Shown one piece after another: positions 49,025 to 58,299 of a stretch of 64,000 nucleotides of DNA. Positions within the stretch are counted from its first letter, which is position 1. Each line of letters opens with the position of its first letter. The DNA is from Rubrobacter tropicus. GTDB lineage: Bacteria > Actinomycetota > Rubrobacteria > Rubrobacterales > Rubrobacteraceae. The stretch is from contig NZ_CP045119.1 in NCBI RefSeq assembly GCF_011492945.1, forward strand, positions 2,108,001-2,172,000, read 5' to 3'. The translations under genes and the position numbers were made by a program. The notes beneath the pieces are model-generated. The model worked only from the letters and a program-made list of their open reading frames with translations, ran no database searches and was not told the origin of the DNA.

Positions 49025-49804
49025 TCACTCGACGCGCCGGCTCTGCTCGACGCCGGCGGGCTTCTTGCCCGACTTGTTGGCCCTCTCGCGCGCCAGGGTG
49101 GCCCGCGGGTTGGAGCTGCGGTACTGGACGTGGCCGCGGCGCAGGTAGCCCAGCGGCACGCTGAAGACGTGAACCAGGCTCGAGAACGGCCACAGCGCGA
49201 ACAAAACGAAGGCCGAGATAGCGTGAAGCTGGAATATGAGGGGCACCCCGACCATGAGGCCGGCTTCGGGCCGGAACAAAAAGAGGTTGCGGAACCACGC
49301 GCCCACGGTGTCCCTGTACTCGAACTCCCCCTGCAGCTCGTACTGGCTGGCGTAGACGCGGTAGCCGATGGTCGCCGCGAGGCCGAGCAAGACCACCACC
49401 AGGAGCAACCCGTCCGTCACGAACCTCATCGTCTCGGTGTTGTTCCGGATGCGGGGTATGAACCAGCGGCGGATGTTCAACAGGAGGATGCCGGCCATCG
49501 CGACGATCCCGACCGGGGCGCCCACCCACAGGGAGAGCAGGTGGTAGTTGTGGTCCGAGACCCCGATCGCGCGGTAGACCCCGATCGGCACGAGCAGCCC
49601 CATCACGTGCCCCCCGAGGACGAACAGGAACCCCCAGTGAAAGAGCAAAACGCCCCACATGAGCAGCCTCCGCTCCAGTAGCTGGCTCGACTTCGGCGTC
49701 CAGCCGTACTGGTCGTAGACGTACCGGTAGACGTGCCCGAGTACGAACGTGACGAGGGCCAGGTAAGGGAAGATCACCCACAAGAACTGGCTCCAGAGGC
49801 TCAT
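49025..49804 (-). CDS. narI: Respiratory nitrate reductase gamma subunit (cytochrome b)
   Basis: NarI is the membrane diheme cytochrome b that takes electrons from quinol and hands them to NarH. The 259-residue protein has five membrane helices with the heme-ligand His residues in FVLGHVYRYVYD, LFHWGFLFVLGGHVMG and LIFQLHAISAFVLFALWPFS, followed by LVHVFSVPLGYL. ATG 49804 overlaps the narJ TGA. It is the last structural gene of narGHJI. Confidence 0.97.
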   Translation of the reverse strand: MSLWSQFLWVIFPYLALVTFVLGHVYRYVYDQYGWTPKSSQLLERRLLMWGVLLFHWGFLFVLGGHVMGLLVPIGVYRAIGVSDHNYHLLSLWVGAPVGIVAMAGILLLNIRRWFIPRIRNNTETMRFVTDGLLLVVVLLGLAATIGYRVYASQYELQGEFEYRDTVGAWFRNLFLFRPEAGLMVGVPLIFQLHAISAFVLFALWPFSSLVHVFSVPLGYLRRGHVQYRSSNPRATLARERANKSGKKPAGVEQSRRVE

Positions 49805-50468
49805 CGTTTCCTCCCGTGAAAGACGACGTTGCCGATCGGAGCAACGCCACCCAAAGCGCCGTCGTCGCCGAAGGGCTCTCCGGGCGCCGCGTCGGCCGAG
49901 TAGGGCTCGAGCCCCACGCTCTCCTGCGGCGGCCCTGCACTATGAGCTTCCTCATCTCCGCGACGGTCCCCTCGTCGAGCGCGGGCAGGAAGAAGTCGAG
50001 CGCGTCGGCGAGATGGGCGTAAGGGCTCCTGTCGTGGACGAGGGAGCGCCGGATGACCTCTATGGCCGCCCGGTTCCCGGCGAGCATCGCCAGCCCCTCC
50101 TCCGGGGCTTCCGAGGCAAACTCCAGCAGGAGCGGGAGGTAGTCCGGCAGCTCGGTCGTGTCGAGCGGGTACCCTGCCCGGGAGTACGCCTCTTTCATGT
50201 CGGCGAGGGCCCGGCCGCGGGAGCGGGCGTCGCCGTGACGGTAGTAGCTGAGGTACAGGCAGCCCCGTCGTTTGAAGTCGAAGACTTCGGCGTAGGTCGC
50301 CTGCAGGCGCGACGGGGGCTCTTCTTCCCAGTAGGCCAGGAACGGTAGGATGGCGTCCTTCGCGGGCGACGGCGGGAGGTCGTGGGCGGCGGCTGAGATC
50401 TCCTGGCGATAAGCCAGCACCTCGTCGTCCGGGTAGCGGAGCAGGATGGAGAGGAGCTTGAAGATCAC
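49801..50468 (-). CDS. narJ: Nitrate reductase assembly chaperone NarJ, one suspected 1-base deletion
   Basis: NarJ inserts molybdenum cofactor into NarG and is not in the final enzyme. It reads LLSILLRYPDDEVLAYRQEI at the N-terminus and contains YVEVF-like YAEVFDFKRRGCLYLSYY and GDARSRGRALADMKEAYSRA. After MRKLIVQG the frame is lost; adding a base to CCC 49933-49935 restores a tail ending NVVFHGRKR and a TGA overlapping the narI ATG, for 222 residues. GTG 50468 overlaps the narH stop (GTGA). Confidence 0.93.
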
Positions 50469-52195
50469 GCGCCCGCCCCCTTCGGCCCGCGCCCCTTGAG
50501 GTGGAACGCCTCGAAGTCCTTCTTGCTCGTAAAGAGCCGCACGTTTGGCGCCCGCACCTTCCCGCCCAGCTCCCTGGCCTTCTTCTCCAGCTCGTCCTTC
50601 ATGGCGTAGAAACCCTCGTTGCGCGTCCCGCCAAATGCGCCGGCTTCGGCCGAAGAGGAGCAGCTACCAGGTCCGCCGGCGAAGTCCAGGCTGCAGGAGG
50701 AGTAGGCGTCGTTGCGGTGTCCGCCGTCGGAGGCGGCGGCCGGGCCGCCGGCGAACTGGAGGCCGGCCGTGCCGCGCTGCTCGTAGAGCTCCGCGGCGAG
50801 CTCCTTGTGGGCGGGCGGGATGACGTAGCGGTCCTCGTACTTTGCGATGGCGAGCAGGCGGTACATGTCTTCGATCTCCTGCGGCCCCATCCCGACCGCC
50901 GATGCGACCTCGGCGTCCCCGAGACCGGAGAGGTTCTTCTCCCGCATGTAGCCCCGCATCGCCGCCAGGCGTTTCAGCACCCTCCTGACCACCTCCTCGT
51001 CGCCGGCCGAGAGGAGGTTGGCCAGGTACTGGATCGGTATCCTGAGCTCGTCTATGGCCGGAAAGACGTCGTCGGGGTCGGCCTCGGCGCCGTTCCCTTC
51101 CACAAAACCCATGACCGGCGAGAGCGGGGGAACGTACCAGACCATGGGCATCGTGCGGTACTCCGGGTGGAGCGGCAGGGCGATGCCCCACTCTATGGCG
51201 AGGCGGTAGATCGGGGACCGCTGCGCCGCCGCGACCCAGTCGTCCGGAATCCCGTCGAACCGCGCCTGCTCGACGACCCCGGGGTCGTTCGGGTCCAGAA
51301 ACACGCCGCGCTGGGCCTCCAGCAGGTCCTTCTCGTCGGGCACCGAAGCGGCCCCCTCCACCGCGTCGGCGTCGTAGAGGACGAGACCTATGTAGCGCAG
51401 GCGACCGACGCAGGTCTCCGAGCAGATCGTCGGCTGCCCCGTCTCTATGCGCGGGTAGCAAAGCGTACATTTCTCCGCTTTGCCCGAATCCCAGTTGAAG
51501 TAGACCTTCTTGTAGGGGCAGCCGGAGACGCAGTAGCGCCAGCCGCGGCACTGCTCCTGGTCTACCAGCACGATCCCGTCCTCCTCGCGCTTGTACATCG
51601 CGCCGGAAGGGCACGACGCGACGCACGAGGGGTTCAGGCAGTGCTCGCAGATGCGCGGCAGGTACATCATGAAGACCTTCTCGTACTCGAAGCGCACCGA
51701 CTCCTCAAGCTCGCCCCGGATGTTCGGGTCGAGCGAGGCGGTCTCGGGGGCGCCCGCGAGGTCGTCGTCCCAGTTCGGCCCCCACTCCAAGTCTATGGGA
51801 TCGCCGGAGAGCTGCGAGATGGGCCTTGCCACGGGCTGATGCTCGCTCTGTTTCGCGTTCGTGAGCGTCTCGTAATCGTAGGTCCAGGGCTCGTAGAAGT
51901 CGTCTATGGACGGCATGTCCGGGTTGAAGAAGATGTTGGCGAGCTTGCGGAGCTTGCCGCCGGCCTTGAGCTCGAGCTTGCCGTTCTTGCCTAGAGTCCA
52001 GCCGCCCTTCCAGCGTTCCTGGTCCTCGTAGAGCTTCGGGTAGCCGACGCCCGGTTTGGTCTCGACGTTGTTCCACCACTGGTATTCCGTGCCCTCGCGG
52101 CTCGTCCAGACGTTCTTGCAGGTAACCGAGCAGGTGTGGCAGCCGATACATTTATCCAGGTTCATCACCATCGCCACCTGGGCTTTGACGCGCAC
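50465..52195 (-). CDS. narH: Respiratory nitrate reductase beta subunit
   Basis: NarH carries one 3Fe-4S and three 4Fe-4S clusters between NarI and NarG. The 576-residue protein has CIGCHTCSVTCKNVW near the start, CEHCLNPSCVASCPSGA, and CRGWRYCVSGCPYKKVYF, in which Trp replaces one Cys as in other NarH 3Fe-4S sites, and CTLCYPRIETGQPTIC. GTG 52195 overlaps the narG TAG by one base. The long open frame further upstream is narG in another frame. Confidence 0.97.
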   Translation of the reverse strand: MRVKAQVAMVMNLDKCIGCHTCSVTCKNVWTSREGTEYQWWNNVETKPGVGYPKLYEDQERWKGGWTLGKNGKLELKAGGKLRKLANIFFNPDMPSIDDFYEPWTYDYETLTNAKQSEHQPVARPISQLSGDPIDLEWGPNWDDDLAGAPETASLDPNIRGELEESVRFEYEKVFMMYLPRICEHCLNPSCVASCPSGAMYKREEDGIVLVDQEQCRGWRYCVSGCPYKKVYFNWDSGKAEKCTLCYPRIETGQPTICSETCVGRLRYIGLVLYDADAVEGAASVPDEKDLLEAQRGVFLDPNDPGVVEQARFDGIPDDWVAAAQRSPIYRLAIEWGIALPLHPEYRTMPMVWYVPPLSPVMGFVEGNGAEADPDDVFPAIDELRIPIQYLANLLSAGDEEVVRRVLKRLAAMRGYMREKNLSGLGDAEVASAVGMGPQEIEDMYRLLAIAKYEDRYVIPPAHKELAAELYEQRGTAGLQFAGGPAAASDGGHRNDAYSSCSLDFAGGPGSCSSSAEAGAFGGTRNEGFYAMKDELEKKARELGGKVRAPNVRLFTSKKDFEAFHLKGRGPKGAGA

Positions 52196-55100
52196 TAGTA
52201 GACCACCTCGCTCTCGCGCTTGCGGATCACCGTCAGCTCGTCGCGCTGGGAGCCCGTCGGGCCGTAGTAGTTGAAGAAGTACGAGAGCTGGGCGTAGCCC
52301 CCGATCATGTGCGTCGGCTTGACGTAGATCTTGGTCAATGAGTTCTCCGTGCCGCCGCGGGTGCCGGAGACCTCGCTTATGGGCACGTTCAGGTGACGGT
52401 CCTGGGAGTGGTACATGATCGTGGTCCCCTCGGGGATGCGGTGGGAGACGACGGCCCGCGCCGCGACCACCCCGTTGCGGTTGTACGCCTCCACCCAGTC
52501 GTTGTCCTTCACGCCCATCTTCGCGGCGTCCCTGTCGCTGATCCACATCGTCGGCCCGCCCCGAAAGAGCGTGAGCATGGTCAGGTTGTCCTGGAACTCG
52601 GAGTGTATGGACCATTTGGAATGCGGCGTCAGGTACTTGAGCACGACCTCCGCCTTGCCGTTTCCCTCCCTGATGTCCCCCAGGTGTTTGGCCATCCGCA
52701 TCGGTGGTCTGTAGGCGGGTAGGCCCTCGCCGTACTCGAGCATCCACTCGTGGTCGACGTAGAACTGCTGGCGGCCCGTGAGGGTTCGCCAGGGGATGGA
52801 GCGGTCGACGTTTATGGTGAAAGGCGAGTAGCGGCGGGTGCGGCTCTCGGTGCCGGACCATTCGGGGGAGACGATCACCTTGCGCGGCTGGGAGACTATG
52901 TCGGCGAAGGTTATGAGCTCCTCGCCCCGCTCCTCGGCCAGGTCCGCGAGCTTCATCCCCGTCCGTTCCTCCATCTGCCCGAAACCCTCTACCGCCATGC
53001 GGCCGTTCGTGGTGCCCGAGAGGGCGAGTATCGCCTCGCACACCTGGTCGGCCCTCTTGATCTCGGGCCTCCCTGCGCCGACGCCGCGGCGCACGGTCCC
53101 GTTGCGTCCCTTTAAATACTCGATCTCCTGGTGCGGCTTCCAGAGGTTGCCCTTGGCCCCGATCCCGACGTTCTCGACCGCGGGCCCTATTGCGGTCATC
53201 TTCTCCGCGACCGCACCATAATCCCGCTCGACTACGACGAGCTTGGGCATGGTCTTGCCCGGGATGGGCTCGCACTCGCCCTTCTTCCAGTCGAGGACCT
53301 TCCCTGACGGCTGGGCCAGCTCGTCCGGCGTGTCGTGGAGCAGGGGGGCGGCTATCAGGTCCCTTCTAATCCCCAGGTGCTTCTTGCCGAGTCTGGAGAA
53401 CGCTTCGGCGACGTAGTTGAAGATGTCCCAATCGCTCTTCGCCTCCCACGGCGGCGTTATGGCCGGGTTGAACGGGTGAACGAACGGGTGCATGTCGGTC
53501 GAGGAGATGTCGTGCTTCTCGTACCAGGTCGCCGTCGGCAGCACGATGTCCGAGTACAGAGACGAGCCGTTCTTGCGGAAGTCTATGGTCGTCAGAAGGT
53601 CGATCTTACCCTCGGGCGAATCCCGCCAGACCACCTCCTCCGGGCGCATCTCCTGAGGCGTCTCCTCGCTCCGGACGGCCGCGTCTGGAACGCCGAGCAG
53701 GTGCTTCAAGAAGAACTCGTGGCCCTTGCTGGAAGAGCCGAACAGGTTGCAGCGCCACAGGGTAAGGACGCGCGGGAAATTCTCCGGCGCGTCGGGGTCC
53801 TCGGCGGCGAACCGGAGGCGCCCCTCCTTGAGCTCGCGCACCACGTACTCCTTCGGGTCCATGCCCTCGGCTTCGGCCTCGTCTACGAGATCGAGCGGGT
53901 TCCGGTTGAAGCTCGGGTAGGAGGGCAGCCAGCCGAGGCGGGCGGAGAGGGCGACGCAGTCGGCCATGTGCTTGCCGGCCAGCTTCCCCTTTCCGAGCGG
54001 GGTGGCGAACTCGTCGGCCTTGAAGGTGTCGTAGCGCCACTGGCTGCTCGCCAGGTACCAGAGGGCCGTGCCGGCCATGTGGCGCGTGGGCCTCGCCCAG
54101 TCGAAGGCGAAGGCGAGGGTCGACCAGCCCGTGATGGGGCGGACCTTCTCCTGGCCGACGTAGTGGGCCCAGCCGCCGCCGTTTCTGCCCTGGCAGCCGC
54201 ACAGGACGACGAGGGCGAGCATGGAGCGGTAGATCTGGTCCGAGTGATACCAGTGGTTGGTGCCCGCGCCCATCAGGATCATGGACCGGCCCTCGCTCCT
54301 CTCGGCGTTGCGGGCGAACTCGCGGGCTATCCGGGCGCAGCGCCCGGCGTCAACGCCCGTGATCTCCTCCTGCCACGCCGGCGTGTAGGGCTCGGGATCG
54401 TCGTAGCCTTCCGGCCACTCACCCGGCAAACCCTCGCGCCCCACCCCGTACTGGGCCAGCAGCAAATCGTAGACGGTCGTGACCAGGTGCCCGCCGACGC
54501 GCCGGACCGGCACGCCGCGGCGCATCACGGTCCCGCCCTCGTCGTCGCCGGCGTCGAAGCGGGGCAGGTCTATCTCGACGAGTTCTTCGTGGCGGCCCAG
54601 AAGCGTGAGCGCGGGGTCGGCTTCGCCGAGCTCCAGGTTCCATTTGCCCATCCCCTCGGCGCCGTAGCGGTCACCCATCGAGCCGTTCGGCACCACGGGC
54701 TCCCCGTTCCTCGCGTCGACGAAGACGGTCTTCCACTCGGCGTTCTCCGAAGTCTCGCCCAGGTCTTTGGCGTGCAAGAAGCGGTCCGCGACGGGGGCGC
54801 CGCCCTCGCGCTCCCTGAGGGTCACGAGCATTGGGAGGTCGGTGTATTTCCTGGCGTAGTCCTGGAAGTACGGGACCTGGCGGTCCACGTAGAACTCCTT
54901 GAGCATCACGTGGCCCATCGCCATGGCGAGGGCGCCGTCGGTGCCGGGCTGGACGGGGAGCCAGTGGTCGGCGAACTTGGTGTGGTCGGAGTAGTCGGGG
55001 CTGACGACCACCGTCTTCTGGCCCTTGTAGCGGGCCTCGGTCATGAAGTGGGCGTCGGGGGCGCGGGTTATGGGGACGTTCGAGCCCCACATCATGAGGT

Positions 55101-55854
55101 AGGAGGCGTTCCACCAGTCGGCGGACTCCGGGACGTCCGTCTGGTCGCCCCAGATCTGGGGCGAGGAAGGCGGGAGGTCAGCGTACCAGTCGTAGAAGCT
55201 CGGGATGGTGCCCCCGATCAGGGACATGAACCGCGACCCGCCCGCGTAGGAGGCCATGCTCATGGCGGGTATCGGGGAGAAGCCGATGACCCTGTCGGGG
55301 CCGTACTTCTTTATCGTGTACACGTGCGCGGCGGCCATGATCTCCGCGACCTCGGGCCACGCGGAACGGACGAGCCCGCCCTTGCCCCTGGCCACCTTGT
55401 AAGCCCTGGCCTTCTCCGGGTCCTCGACGATCGAGGCCCAGGCCGCTACCGCGTCCCCGGTACGGGCTTTCGCCTCGCGGTACATCTCGACGAGAACGCC
55501 GCGGACGTAGGGGTACTTTATGCGGATCGGGGAGTAGGTGTACCAGGAGAAAGAGGCGCCCCTGGGGCAGCCGCGGGGCTCGTACTCGGGCATGTCTGGG
55601 CCATTCGAGGGATAGTCGGTCTGTTGACTCTCCCAGGTGATGATCCCGTCCTTGACGTAGACCTTCCAGGAGCACGAGCCGGTGCAGTTCACGCCGTGGG
55701 TGGAGCGCACGATCTTGTCGTGCTGCCACCGCTGGCGGTAGGCGTGCTCCCACTCCCGGTCCCGCGCGTTCAACTCGGAGTGCTCGCCCGGCCGCTTCTC
55801 GCCCCTCCTGAAATACTGCAGGTTCCTGAGCAGGGGGTTGGTGGTCTTCGCCAC
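52195..55854 (-). CDS. narG: Respiratory nitrate reductase alpha subunit
   Basis: NarG is the molybdenum bis-MGD catalytic subunit that reduces nitrate to nitrite. The 1219-residue protein has the FS0 cluster ligands His53, Cys57, Cys61 and Cys96 (HGVNCTGSC, YEPRGCPRG), YPSNGPDMPEYEP, and molybdopterin-binding regions such as MMWGSNVPITRAPDAHF. GTG 55854 overlaps the narK TAG. A functional periplasmic export signal is not apparent, which fits a cytoplasm-facing NarG. Confidence 0.98.
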   Translation of the reverse strand: MAKTTNPLLRNLQYFRRGEKRPGEHSELNARDREWEHAYRQRWQHDKIVRSTHGVNCTGSCSWKVYVKDGIITWESQQTDYPSNGPDMPEYEPRGCPRGASFSWYTYSPIRIKYPYVRGVLVEMYREAKARTGDAVAAWASIVEDPEKARAYKVARGKGGLVRSAWPEVAEIMAAAHVYTIKKYGPDRVIGFSPIPAMSMASYAGGSRFMSLIGGTIPSFYDWYADLPPSSPQIWGDQTDVPESADWWNASYLMMWGSNVPITRAPDAHFMTEARYKGQKTVVVSPDYSDHTKFADHWLPVQPGTDGALAMAMGHVMLKEFYVDRQVPYFQDYARKYTDLPMLVTLREREGGAPVADRFLHAKDLGETSENAEWKTVFVDARNGEPVVPNGSMGDRYGAEGMGKWNLELGEADPALTLLGRHEELVEIDLPRFDAGDDEGGTVMRRGVPVRRVGGHLVTTVYDLLLAQYGVGREGLPGEWPEGYDDPEPYTPAWQEEITGVDAGRCARIAREFARNAERSEGRSMILMGAGTNHWYHSDQIYRSMLALVVLCGCQGRNGGGWAHYVGQEKVRPITGWSTLAFAFDWARPTRHMAGTALWYLASSQWRYDTFKADEFATPLGKGKLAGKHMADCVALSARLGWLPSYPSFNRNPLDLVDEAEAEGMDPKEYVVRELKEGRLRFAAEDPDAPENFPRVLTLWRCNLFGSSSKGHEFFLKHLLGVPDAAVRSEETPQEMRPEEVVWRDSPEGKIDLLTTIDFRKNGSSLYSDIVLPTATWYEKHDISSTDMHPFVHPFNPAITPPWEAKSDWDIFNYVAEAFSRLGKKHLGIRRDLIAAPLLHDTPDELAQPSGKVLDWKKGECEPIPGKTMPKLVVVERDYGAVAEKMTAIGPAVENVGIGAKGNLWKPHQEIEYLKGRNGTVRRGVGAGRPEIKRADQVCEAILALSGTTNGRMAVEGFGQMEERTGMKLADLAEERGEELITFADIVSQPRKVIVSPEWSGTESRTRRYSPFTINVDRSIPWRTLTGRQQFYVDHEWMLEYGEGLPAYRPPMRMAKHLGDIREGNGKAEVVLKYLTPHSKWSIHSEFQDNLTMLTLFRGGPTMWISDRDAAKMGVKDNDWVEAYNRNGVVAARAVVSHRIPEGTTIMYHSQDRHLNVPISEVSGTRGGTENSLTKIYVKPTHMIGGYAQLSYFFNYYGPTGSQRDELTVIRKRESEVVY

Positions 55855-57068
55855 TACCTCACCCTTCCTTCCGTGGCCGCGCCGGCACCCGACGGACGTT
55901 TACGAACGAACATGGCGTTGACGATCAGGCACCCGATAGCGAAGATCGCCAGAAAGATGAACCCGAGGGTGTAAGCCCCGGTGGCGTCCCGCACGATGCC
56001 GAGCACGAGCGGCGGGAAGAACCCGCCGAGCCCGCCGGCCGCCCCGACGACGCCGGTCACGGCGCCCGTCTTGCCGGGGTAGTACTCGGCGACGAGCTTG
56101 AAGACCGCGCCGTTGCCGAGCCCGAAGAGCACCGCGCTCGCGAGGGCGCCTATGGTGAAGAGGAAGATCCCGGGCTCGAAGCTGAGGATGATCGCCGTTA
56201 CCGGCAGCCCCGCGAAGACGAGCATGAGCGTCCCGCCCCCCCCTACCCGGTCCGCGAGCCAGCCTCCGATCGGGCGGGAGAGCGTCGCGAGCACCACGAA
56301 CCCGGCCGCCCTGAGGCCAGCCCCGGTCTGCGTGAAGCCGAACAGGTCGACGAGCAGCTTGGGCAGGTAGATACCCAGGGCCACGAAACCGCCGAAGGTC
56401 AGGAAGTAGAAGAGGCTGAGGACCCAGGGCATTACCTCCTGGCGGAAGAGCGAGATCCCGGCCGTCACGGAAGGCCGCGGCCCGGTGCTCGGCGCGTCCC
56501 GCCCGAGGGCGTAGAAGATCACGGCCATCGCCACAAGCGGCACCACGAAGACCCAGAACGCCAGCCGCCAGCCGTAGAAAGCGGCGATGGCGGGGGCGGT
56601 GTAGGCGGCGATCGCCGTCCCGATGTTGCCCATGCCGTAGACGCCGAGGGCGAGCCCCTGCATGTGCGGCGGGAACCACTTGTTCACGAAGGGAACCCCG
56701 ACGGCGAACGAGGCCCCAGCGAGCCCCAGGAAGAACCCCAGAAGAGCAAACCCCGAAAGAGCCCCGAGAAGCCCGATAAAGACCACGGGCACGATGAGGA
56801 CGAGCATCAACGCGGAGAAGACGATCCTGCCGCCGAACCTGTCCGTGATCAGGCCGAGCGGGATCCGAAACAGCGAACCCAGAATAACCGGCGTCGCGAT
56901 TACGACGCTGATCTGGAAGCTGGAGAGCCGGTACAGCTCCTGAAACTGCGGCGCGAGCGGCGCTATCAGCCCCCACACCGAGAAACACAACGCGAACGCC
57001 AGCGTCGCCAAAACCAACGCCCGGTACGCCCCGGCCTGCGGCCTGCCGGCCGAACTACCCGCGCTCAT
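55854..57068 (-). CDS. narK: Nitrate/nitrite transporter of the NarK family (MFS)
   Basis: The 404-residue protein has twelve membrane helices. NarK family signs are LGSLFRIPLGLITDRFGGR and the nitrate signature region GNIGTAIAAYTAPAIAAFYGW, with GLGNGAVFKLVAEYYPGKTGAVTG in the second half. It transports nitrate in and/or nitrite out. ATG 57068 follows aggaggtggggg. It heads the operon narK-narG-narH-narJ-narI and has about 170 bases of 5' leader from a promoter that overlaps a palindrome. Confidence 0.95.
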   Translation of the reverse strand: MSAGSSAGRPQAGAYRALVLATLAFALCFSVWGLIAPLAPQFQELYRLSSFQISVVIATPVILGSLFRIPLGLITDRFGGRIVFSALMLVLIVPVVFIGLLGALSGFALLGFFLGLAGASFAVGVPFVNKWFPPHMQGLALGVYGMGNIGTAIAAYTAPAIAAFYGWRLAFWVFVVPLVAMAVIFYALGRDAPSTGPRPSVTAGISLFRQEVMPWVLSLFYFLTFGGFVALGIYLPKLLVDLFGFTQTGAGLRAAGFVVLATLSRPIGGWLADRVGGGGTLMLVFAGLPVTAIILSFEPGIFLFTIGALASAVLFGLGNGAVFKLVAEYYPGKTGAVTGVVGAAGGLGGFFPPLVLGIVRDATGAYTLGFIFLAIFAIGCLIVNAMFVRKRPSGAGAATEGRVR

Positions 57069-57225
57069 CCCCCACCTCCTCTAATGGGAAGAAGTCCTCC
57101 ACAACCGAACCCCATGTTGGCCCCTCCCCCGAGCCGCGTCCTGAGAAGATTTGCCCAACCCTCTGGTCCAAACAGACCAATACCGACGGAGAGATCCCCC
57201 AACATCCAACCCAGACACCTCCTAT

Positions 57226-57248
57226 ACTATGACTAATATAGTGATAGT
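57226..57248. promoter_or_regulatory. Palindromic operator at the narK promoter
   Basis: ACTATGAC at 57226-57233 and GTGATAGT at 57241-57248 form an inverted repeat (7 of 8 positions) with a 7-base centre. On the minus strand it covers the -10 box and the likely start of transcription of narK. The half-site ACTATGAC recurs as GTCATAGT at 57873-57880 in the rrf2/cupin intergenic region. I infer a binding site for the nearby Rrf2 regulator. Confidence 0.6.
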
Positions 57249-57273
57249 AAATGCGGCCGGGCCGCGGCGTCAA
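57244..57273 (-). promoter_or_regulatory. narK operon promoter
   Basis: TTGACG (57273-57268, minus strand) and TACTAT (57249-57244) are spaced by 18 bases. The start of transcription should fall near 57237, leaving a leader of about 170 bases before narK. The -10 box lies inside the palindrome at 57226-57248. Confidence 0.6.
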
Positions 57274-57342
57274 GAGCGGGAGTAAGGTTTTGGGTGGCGG
57301 CTGATAGCTCTACAAACAGTTCCACCCTCTTTGCAAGCCACA

Positions 57343-57768
57343 CTAGTGGAAGTGCGGGGCCTGGGATGAGAAATCGGCGAGGGTCTTTGTGCCGAGTTCC
57401 TGGAGGATGGCGTTCTGGCCTTCGGTCCAGGCGTCGTGGAGGGCGCAGGGGCGGCCGTGGCCGCAGGGTCGTTGTTGCATGATGCAGTGGGTGATCTCGA
57501 ACGGGCCCTCCACGGCCTCCACGGCGTCGCGGAGGCTGACCTTGTCGGGTGGCAGGGCGAGGTGCGACCCTCCCCCCCTCCCCTCGATGCTCTCCACCAG
57601 GCCGGCGCGCACGAGCTTCGCCATCACGCGGGCGAGCAGACGCCGGGGCACGACCGCCTCGGCCGAGATCCTGTCGGCCGTTACCAGATCTCCCCGGTCC
57701 GCAACTCGCGCCAGATACACCAGCGCCCGCAGCGCGTAGCGCCCCTCGCTCGATAACTCGAGCTTCAT
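57343..57768 (-). CDS. Rrf2-family Fe-S transcriptional regulator
   Basis: The 141-residue protein starts MKLELSSEGRYALRALVYLA, the classical Rrf2 winged helix. It carries VVPRRLLARVMAKLVRAGLVES and GGSHLALPPDKVSLRDAVEAVEG. Three cysteines in HCIMQQRPCGHGRPCALH (C-x6-C-x5-C) are placed like the cluster ligands of NsrR and IscR. I infer an Fe-S sensor of NO, O2 or redox state that controls the nar genes. ATG 57768 is chosen; the frame is open to 57798. It is upstream of narK on the same strand and divergent from the cupin gene. Confidence 0.9.
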   Translation of the reverse strand: MKLELSSEGRYALRALVYLARVADRGDLVTADRISAEAVVPRRLLARVMAKLVRAGLVESIEGRGGGSHLALPPDKVSLRDAVEAVEGPFEITHCIMQQRPCGHGRPCALHDAWTEGQNAILQELGTKTLADFSSQAPHFH

Positions 57769-57857
57769 TAGCCCGGTTCTCCGCTTCCCATCTCCCAAAG
57801 ATACACCGCCGCGCCACCCTCCACCCGGGTGAAAGCGTTCGCCCGCGCACCCTCCAT

Positions 57858-57880
57858 ACTGACACTTATTATGTCATAGT
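57858..57880. promoter_or_regulatory. Related palindrome between the rrf2 and cupin genes
   Basis: ACTGACAC at 57858-57865 and GTCATAGT at 57873-57880 flank a 7-base centre; inside it TGACA and TGTCA are perfectly inverted. The right half is identical to the reverse complement of the left half of the narK site, with the same 8-7-8 geometry. It lies between the divergent starts at 57768 and 57916, fitting autoregulation plus control of the cupin gene. Confidence 0.55.
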
Positions 57881-57915: not shown

Positions 57916-58299
57916 ATGTCGAGCAGGCCGCAGCCCGGGTCCGGGCGTCCGTTGAGCGGGCCGTTGCAGAGCTTCGATTTGGGGGAGGAGGTCGCCAGGT
58001 TGCGCGGGGAGGAGGCTTTCAGGGAAGGAAGGCGGAACTCGATCACGCTTCGCAAGGGCGGCGGGATGAGCGTGGTGTTGCTGGTGATGAGGGCGGGGGA
58101 CCATCTGGAAGAGCACGCGGCGCCGGGTCCGATCTCTCTGGCCGTGAGGGAGGGACGCGTCCGCTTCTCGACGCCCGGCGCCAAGGTAGAGGCCGGACCC
58201 GAGACGCTGCTCGCCTGCGACGCCGGCGAGCGGCACGCGGTCGAGGCTCTGGAAGACTCCGTCTGCGTGGTTACCATCGCGCGCGGCGGGGAGCGCTGA
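57916..58299 (+). CDS. Cupin-domain protein next to the nar regulator
   Basis: The 127-residue protein has a single cupin fold: LVMRAGDHLEEHAAPGPISLAVREG is the first cupin motif with the metal-type His/Glu pattern, and AGERHAVEALEDSVCVVTIA the second. ATG 57916 is preceded by gaggag at good spacing; the frame opens earlier at GTG 57886. It is divergent from the Rrf2 gene and shares the palindrome between them. Small cupins of this sort occur near denitrification and stress genes but their reaction is not established. Confidence 0.82.
   Translation: MSSRPQPGSGRPLSGPLQSFDLGEEVARLRGEEAFREGRRNSITLRKGGGMSVVLLVMRAGDHLEEHAAPGPISLAVREGRVRFSTPGAKVEAGPETLLACDAGERHAVEALEDSVCVVTIARGGER

Follow-up and report, generated by a model that had tools for sequence, protein, structure and literature searches.

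In the genome of Rubrobacter tropicus, a gene for an Rrf2-family regulator stands beside a nitrate respiration operon with one palindrome on either side of it, which raises the question of whether these palindromes are operators, which protein would bind them, and to what signal it would respond. A literature search found no paper on an Rrf2 regulator in Rubrobacter. We analyzed a window of 64,000 nucleotides (the whole stretch of DNA under study, whose numbering is used below unless a contig or locus is named) from the 4.58-Mb genome that contains it, G000, together with genomes of relatives. Sequence comparison shows that the two palindromes, O1 and O2, are real and conserved. They are most likely binding sites for the Rrf2 regulator whose gene separates them, within a wider predicted regulon of nitrate respiration and NO-damage repair in Rubrobacter and its relatives.

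Two 23-bp palindromes at the nar and rrf2-cupin promoters

The operon narKGHJI lies on the minus strand; rrf2 is upstream of it in the same orientation, and a small cupin gene is transcribed away from rrf2. narK (55854..57068) encodes a nitrate/nitrite transporter of the MFS type (TIGR00886, E=5.8e-65, below the curated cut-off; PF07690 above cut-off) and is overlapped by one base by narG (52195..55854; TIGR01580, 1803.7 bits), which encodes the nitrate reductase alpha subunit. The called gene at 50465..52195, with its start taken as GTG 52195 and a Cys-rich ferredoxin-like sequence, is one we take to be narH, encoding the beta subunit; it is followed by narJ and by a called gene at 49025..49804 that presumably encodes a narI-like membrane subunit. 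The Rrf2 gene spans 57343..57768 on the minus strand, its start taken as ATG 57768, and the gene for the cupin-like protein spans 57916..58299 on the plus strand, where we chose ATG 57916 behind GAGAGGAG over the less likely GTG 57886. This small protein has no Pfam or NCBIfam match of its own and is named after its same-start paralog, L041:9292-9663, which matches Cupin_2 just under the cut-off.

Neither palindrome has a strand. O1 (57226..57248; ACTATGACTAATATAGTGATAGT in full) reads ACTATGAC-N7-GTGATAGT upstream of narKGHJI, and O2 (57858..57880; ACTGACACTTATTATGTCATAGT) reads ACTGACAC-N7-GTCATAGT in the region from which rrf2 and the cupin gene diverge, 36-58 bp ahead of the likely cupin ATG and 90-112 bp ahead of the rrf2 ATG. 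As an earlier note on this DNA had described, both are 23 bp long with 8-7-8 spacing and share an identical half-site, ACTATGAC being the exact reverse complement of GTCATAGT. The arms of O1 agree at 7/8 positions and those of O2, one of which is identical to an arm of O1, at only 5/8, and O2 is clearly the weaker operator of the two. The claim that O1 covers the -10 box of a narK promoter holds by consensus, since a consensus scan places a predicted -10 hexamer TACTAT (57244..57249, minus strand) over O1 and a predicted -35 hexamer TTGACG (57268..57273, minus strand) beyond an 18-bp spacer. Most operator sites cover -10-like hexamers in such a scan, and TTG shows a slight excess 19-30 bp ahead of them, though on small numbers. 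We do not take the -10 overlap as strong evidence, because AT-rich operators easily match TANNNT and the overlap is partly a matter of composition.

A further palindrome of Crp/Fnr-type geometry, TTGGTC-N6-GACCAG, lies between O1 and narK (57163..57180, no strand), and a similar element is found upstream of most narK genes of the family. The pattern TTGRTC-N6-GAYCAA occurs 80-210 bp ahead of narK in 7/8 loci at <=3 mismatches, 6 of them clearly beating shuffles; copies upstream of narK include L041:6034, L055:6797 and L096:4703, and others in L045 and L095. Because this palindrome accompanies the operator, narK is probably under two controls, the additional element likely serving a second regulator.

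Both sites are recovered by a matrix trained outside the window

Promoters are locally AT-rich within this high-GC genome, so O1 and O2 could in principle be chance AT-rich palindromes, a reading that we consider extremely improbable. The window holds 5 motif matches at <=2 mismatches against 0.58 expected, a number reached in 0/100 shuffles. A weight matrix was trained on 22 sites, all outside the window; these had been picked by their likeness to the motif of the earlier note, so that the matrix owes nothing to the window sequence but does depend on the motif idea. Scanned over all window positions, it ranked O1 first (36.8 bits) and O2 second (19.8 bits), with the next unrelated position at 5.2 bits; when the window was shuffled 40 times with its local composition kept, the best score was 15.8. 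When the spacers were shuffled, the observed score was reached in 0/20000 cases for O1 at narK and in 1/20000 for O2 between rrf2 and the cupin gene. Together with operator conservation across genera and in a second phylum, these results led us to reject a chance origin for the operator set. The main weight of the argument is carried by conservation of the predicted operator near orthologs rather than by matrix statistics.

The operator recurs at nitrate respiration and iron-centre repair genes

Whole genomes were scanned with mismatch patterns, not with the weight matrix. In G000, ACTATGAC-N7-GTCATAGT at <=3 mismatches matched 11 places, and its reversed control matched 2. Of the 11, 4 are grouped at 3.945-3.963 Mb, the location of a second Rrf2 gene (67% identity). 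The refined pattern AMTATTAC-N7-GTAATAKT matched 9 places against 1 in the control, with all but one of the 9 (8/9) at the window locus or at 3.932-3.963 Mb. Matches with GC-rich centres, e.g. G000:C1:2080414 (GCGATGACCTACCCGGTCATAGT), were set aside as unlike the conserved sites. Among the genes of the second region are another narKGH, those for cupins, hemerythrins, a ferredoxin and a Rieske protein, Crp/Fnr-type genes, and a Repair-of-Iron-Centres (RIC) gene that stands by an operator and scores above the TIGR03652 cut-off. Viewed as a locus, G000:C1:3938000-3963000 (L041, L042) contains, besides this second narKGH, an Rrf2 paralog of its own, Crp/Fnr genes, a pair of RIC genes, cupins and hemerythrins. 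That the two Rrf2 copies arose by recent duplication within the genome is not supported: the window copy groups with that of G011 (95/90), not with copy 2.

Across the Rubrobacteraceae loci, operator sites precede narK, RIC genes, norB, ferredoxin, Rieske, cupin and hemerythrin genes, a DUF4149 gene and Crp/Fnr regulators, at site-to-gene distances of 7 to about 290 bp. The genome scan that the earlier note had proposed as a check thus finds refined-consensus sites at both nar loci of G000, the one in the window and the second, ahead of N-oxide, Fe-S and associated genes; the regulon of narK and one cupin envisaged there is included and proves too narrow, as RIC, norB, ferredoxin, Rieske and hemerythrin genes also carry sites. 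No isc or suf operon was seen among the sites and loci examined, and a FeS_assembly_P gene and a ferredoxin gene adjoin one site.

The Rrf2 clade is present in 14/39 family genomes at 64-72% identity, with the next Rrf2 proteins near 30%, and in the wider phylum the Rrf2 scores show a gap from 245 to 108 bits. Comparison with related genomes, also suggested beforehand, finds the operator kept beside orthologous Rrf2 genes of other Rubrobacteraceae: sites of 19-47 bits adjoin the gene in G038, G011, G016, G005, G024 and G000 copy 2, and the window gene also has an operator nearby, so that both G000 copies have an adjoining site. Most of the remaining clade genomes have operator sites by targets. 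The idea of an autoregulated repressor of nitrate respiration and of the cupin agrees with the conserved sites at narK, cupin and rrf2 genes, but its autoregulatory part is not universal in the family, because no recognisable operator lies by rrf2 in G014 and G015, and those in G025-G027 are weak. RIC-gene sites score 40-42 bits in G000, G014 and G015 and a weaker 16-22 bits in G025-G027. A DUF4149 protein is a recurrent target in most genomes, as are cupins or cupin-hemerythrin pairs and narK; norB is a target in G005 (split norB) and Crp/Fnr genes are in G000 and G015.

The operator also tracks its regulator. Sites with <=1 mismatch number 17 in the 14 regulator-bearing genomes against 3 in the 25 without it, and full-length narG co-occurs with the regulator, which is present in 11 of the 12 genomes that have narG (Fisher p=2e-6, with no correction for kinship). 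The genome with narG and no regulator, G001, has no operator at its narK/narG loci, where the best score is 0.6 or lower. Binding by the Rrf2 clade protein is what we infer, because regulator and operator co-occur and sit side by side. In a Chloroflexia MAG, an Rrf2 gene of 56% identity (from 6001) is preceded at ~60 bp by a perfect operator (L111:5918-5940), the only strong site in that genome, which suggests either transfer of the regulator with its operator or mis-binning. No such operator was found near the Rrf2 genes of Acidimicrobiia and more distant relatives.

Several further sites are recorded as observations. Operator-like sites of 30-31 bits occur at L097:6114 (G033, 83% complete) and L099:5319 (G035), where the Rrf2 clade was not found. 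A strong operator of 38.8 bits at L093:7921-7943 (G012) lies 236 bp ahead of a gene for a 329-aa protein without a Pfam match. A small membrane protein gene (L092:4523; L045:9550) is divergent from a Rieske or DUF4149 gene with the operator between them, and the L092 copy has no Pfam match.

An Fe-S-type Rrf2 protein with a predicted Cys3-His ligand set

The description of the gene between the palindromes as an Fe-S-type Rrf2 gene is borne out by its winged-helix domain (PF02082, E=2e-35, 122.3 bits vs a cut-off of 30; TIGR00738, 103.9 vs 73.3) and by the three cysteines of the cluster loop that mark the Fe-S subgroup, C95, C102 and C108, found in 14/14 sequences. E87, C95, C102, C108 and H111 are among the residues invariant across the 14 clade sequences, giving the arrangement C95-x6-C102-x5-C108-x2-H111. 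Aligned to ScNsrR, the three cysteines pair with Cys93, 99 and 105, H111 faces an Arg, and the invariant Arg10, read back from the alignment start, falls at Asp8, so the NsrR-type fourth cluster ligand is absent. Acidimicrobiia relatives (L113, L114) have TDLALR at the Asp8 region and the same C-x6-C-x5-C-x2-H set.

Both equivalog models score the protein below cut-off, NsrR (NF008240) at 56.5 vs 182 bits and IscR (TIGR02010) far below, at 75.2 vs 207.55 bits. With Cys3-His present, H111 being invariant within C108-x2-H111, and Asp8 replaced by Arg, the ligand set resembles that of IscR and the target set that of NsrR, with sites at RIC, norB, nar and rrf2 genes and autoregulatory sites in part of the genomes. 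We therefore rejected a plain NsrR or IscR label on ligands, operator and model scores. NO sensing cannot be carried over from NsrR, because the Asp8 ligand is absent.

Proposed mechanism and alternatives

We consider it probable that the Rrf2 protein and its paralog use O1 and O2 as operators, acting as Fe-S repressors released by NO or Fe-S damage. The protein would be a homodimeric Fe-S-cluster repressor that, with its cluster intact, binds the 23-bp palindrome over the -10/start region and blocks RNA polymerase at rrf2, its own gene, as well as at narKGHJI and the cupin gene. During nitrate respiration, NO or other Fe-S damage would destroy or alter the cluster. The protein would then dissociate from the operator, allowing induction of genes for nitrate/NO respiration, Fe-centre repair and iron-binding proteins. 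Points that count against this account are the weakness of O2, the clade genomes with weak sites or none by rrf2, the good sites in G033 and G035, where the regulator was not found, and the missing Asp8 ligand.

The main uncertainty of this mechanism concerns its presumed signal and cluster type. A less likely though serious reading accepts operator and regulator and replaces NO by Fe-S cluster supply or the iron/redox state, with an IscR/RisR-like Cys3-His [2Fe-2S] sensor lifting repression of the Fe-S-rich genes for nitrate respiration and repair once clusters run short or become oxidised. The invariant C-x6-C-x5-C-x2-H favours it, as IscR ligates its cluster by Cys92, Cys98, Cys104 and His107 (PMC5411485), and so do the Arg at the Asp8 position of NsrR and an operator core, GAC/TAC-N7-GTC/GTA, with the geometry of the Myxococcus xanthus RisR site GAC-N7-GTC (PMC9973013). 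The targets seen, however, are genes for NO reductase, RIC and nitrate respiration, none of the sites examined being at an isc/suf operon, and the IscR equivalog score (75 vs 207.55) speaks against it.

Who binds the sites and in which sense is less in question. Further Rrf2 genes exist in these genomes and Crp/Fnr genes lie within the second locus, but binding by another Rrf2 protein or a nearby-encoded Crp-family regulator is quite improbable: site abundance tracks the clade and not the other Rrf2 genes, which are present in nearly all genomes, the single strong site of the Chloroflexia genome precedes a clade Rrf2 gene, and narK carries a separate Crp-geometry palindrome. IscR and NsrR can activate as well as repress, and activation of some targets would fit the spread of site-to-gene distances (7 to about 290 bp) and the second element at narK; since most sites lie over -10-like hexamers, the usual repression position, we regard it as unlikely.

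Returning to the NO-responsive repressor, the predicted operator code lets the regulon be read across genomes of the family, and it ties genes of unknown role, namely those for the small cupins, DUF4149 proteins and a small membrane protein, to nitrate respiration or to defence against NO in bacteria of desert soil and in thermophiles. With Asp changed to Arg beside an invariant His, these proteins offer a clean test of how cluster type and signal are chosen in Rrf2 proteins, with the Acidimicrobiia relatives (L113, L114) as a natural comparison on the Asp/His ligand question. Somewhat short of an even chance, in our estimate, is the broader proposal that the clade is a separate Fe-S sensor, which controls a nitrate/NO regulon through an operator code of its own and has an IscR-like Cys3-His set. 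Such a sensor, built differently from NsrR, would do the same job; it would have lost or never possessed the Asp ligand found in its Acidimicrobiia relatives, and would have spread with its operator to Chloroflexia.

Comparison with known systems

IscR of E. coli has a GRYA-type N-terminus, as here, and its type 1 sites have a core of GAC-N7-GTC geometry, like the present operator. It also combines three cysteines with a His two residues beyond the third Cys; it differs in controlling isc/suf where nitrate/NO genes are found here, in its unlike outer half-site, and in the failed model score. RisR of M. xanthus is likewise an Rrf2 Fe-S repressor, whose T(t/g)GAC-N7-GTCC site has AT-rich DNA on either side and shares its geometry with the inner core of our operator, [T/G]AC-N7-GT[A/C], but it controls the isc and suf operons (PMC9973013). 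RsrR of Streptomyces venezuelae differs by its 11-3-11 repeat, NAD(P)H and glutamate targets and redox-switched [2Fe-2S] cluster (PMC5015018). It resembles our protein as an actinobacterial Rrf2 Fe-S regulator, and 6hsd and 6y45 are among the best PDB matches. ArnR of corynebacteria is, to our knowledge, not a member of the Rrf2 family. It has been described as a novel regulator, and as an Fe-S regulator of narKGHJI in an actinobacterium it resembles the system studied here (PMC12343034).

The likeness to NsrR, of the E. coli/B. subtilis type and ScNsrR, extends to the Rrf2 fold, the aligned cysteines (Cys93/99/105), a conserved Glu at ScNsrR Glu85, a 23-bp inverted-repeat operator, autoregulation, and NO-related targets including RIC/YtfE-type and narK-like genes (PMC1274295, PMC4432287). 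The half-site, AMTATTAC here vs gATGyAT in NsrR, is unlike the published consensus, as the earlier note had recognised (PMC1274295), and AMTATTAC-N7-GTAATAKT agrees with gATGyAT-N5-ATrCATc in symmetry and overall length, not in bases. Since published NsrR sites (PMC1274295) do not share the present bases and ScNsrR is known to deviate once more (PMC4432287), operator divergence is usual within the family. At the loci read, no operator was seen by an hmp gene, hmp being no specific search target. Arg replaces the Asp8 ligand of ScNsrR, C-x6-C its C-x5-C, and an extra invariant His is present. The regulator may thus work like NsrR, yet its half-site, the Asp8 to Arg change and the Cys3-His set argue that it should not simply be classed there.
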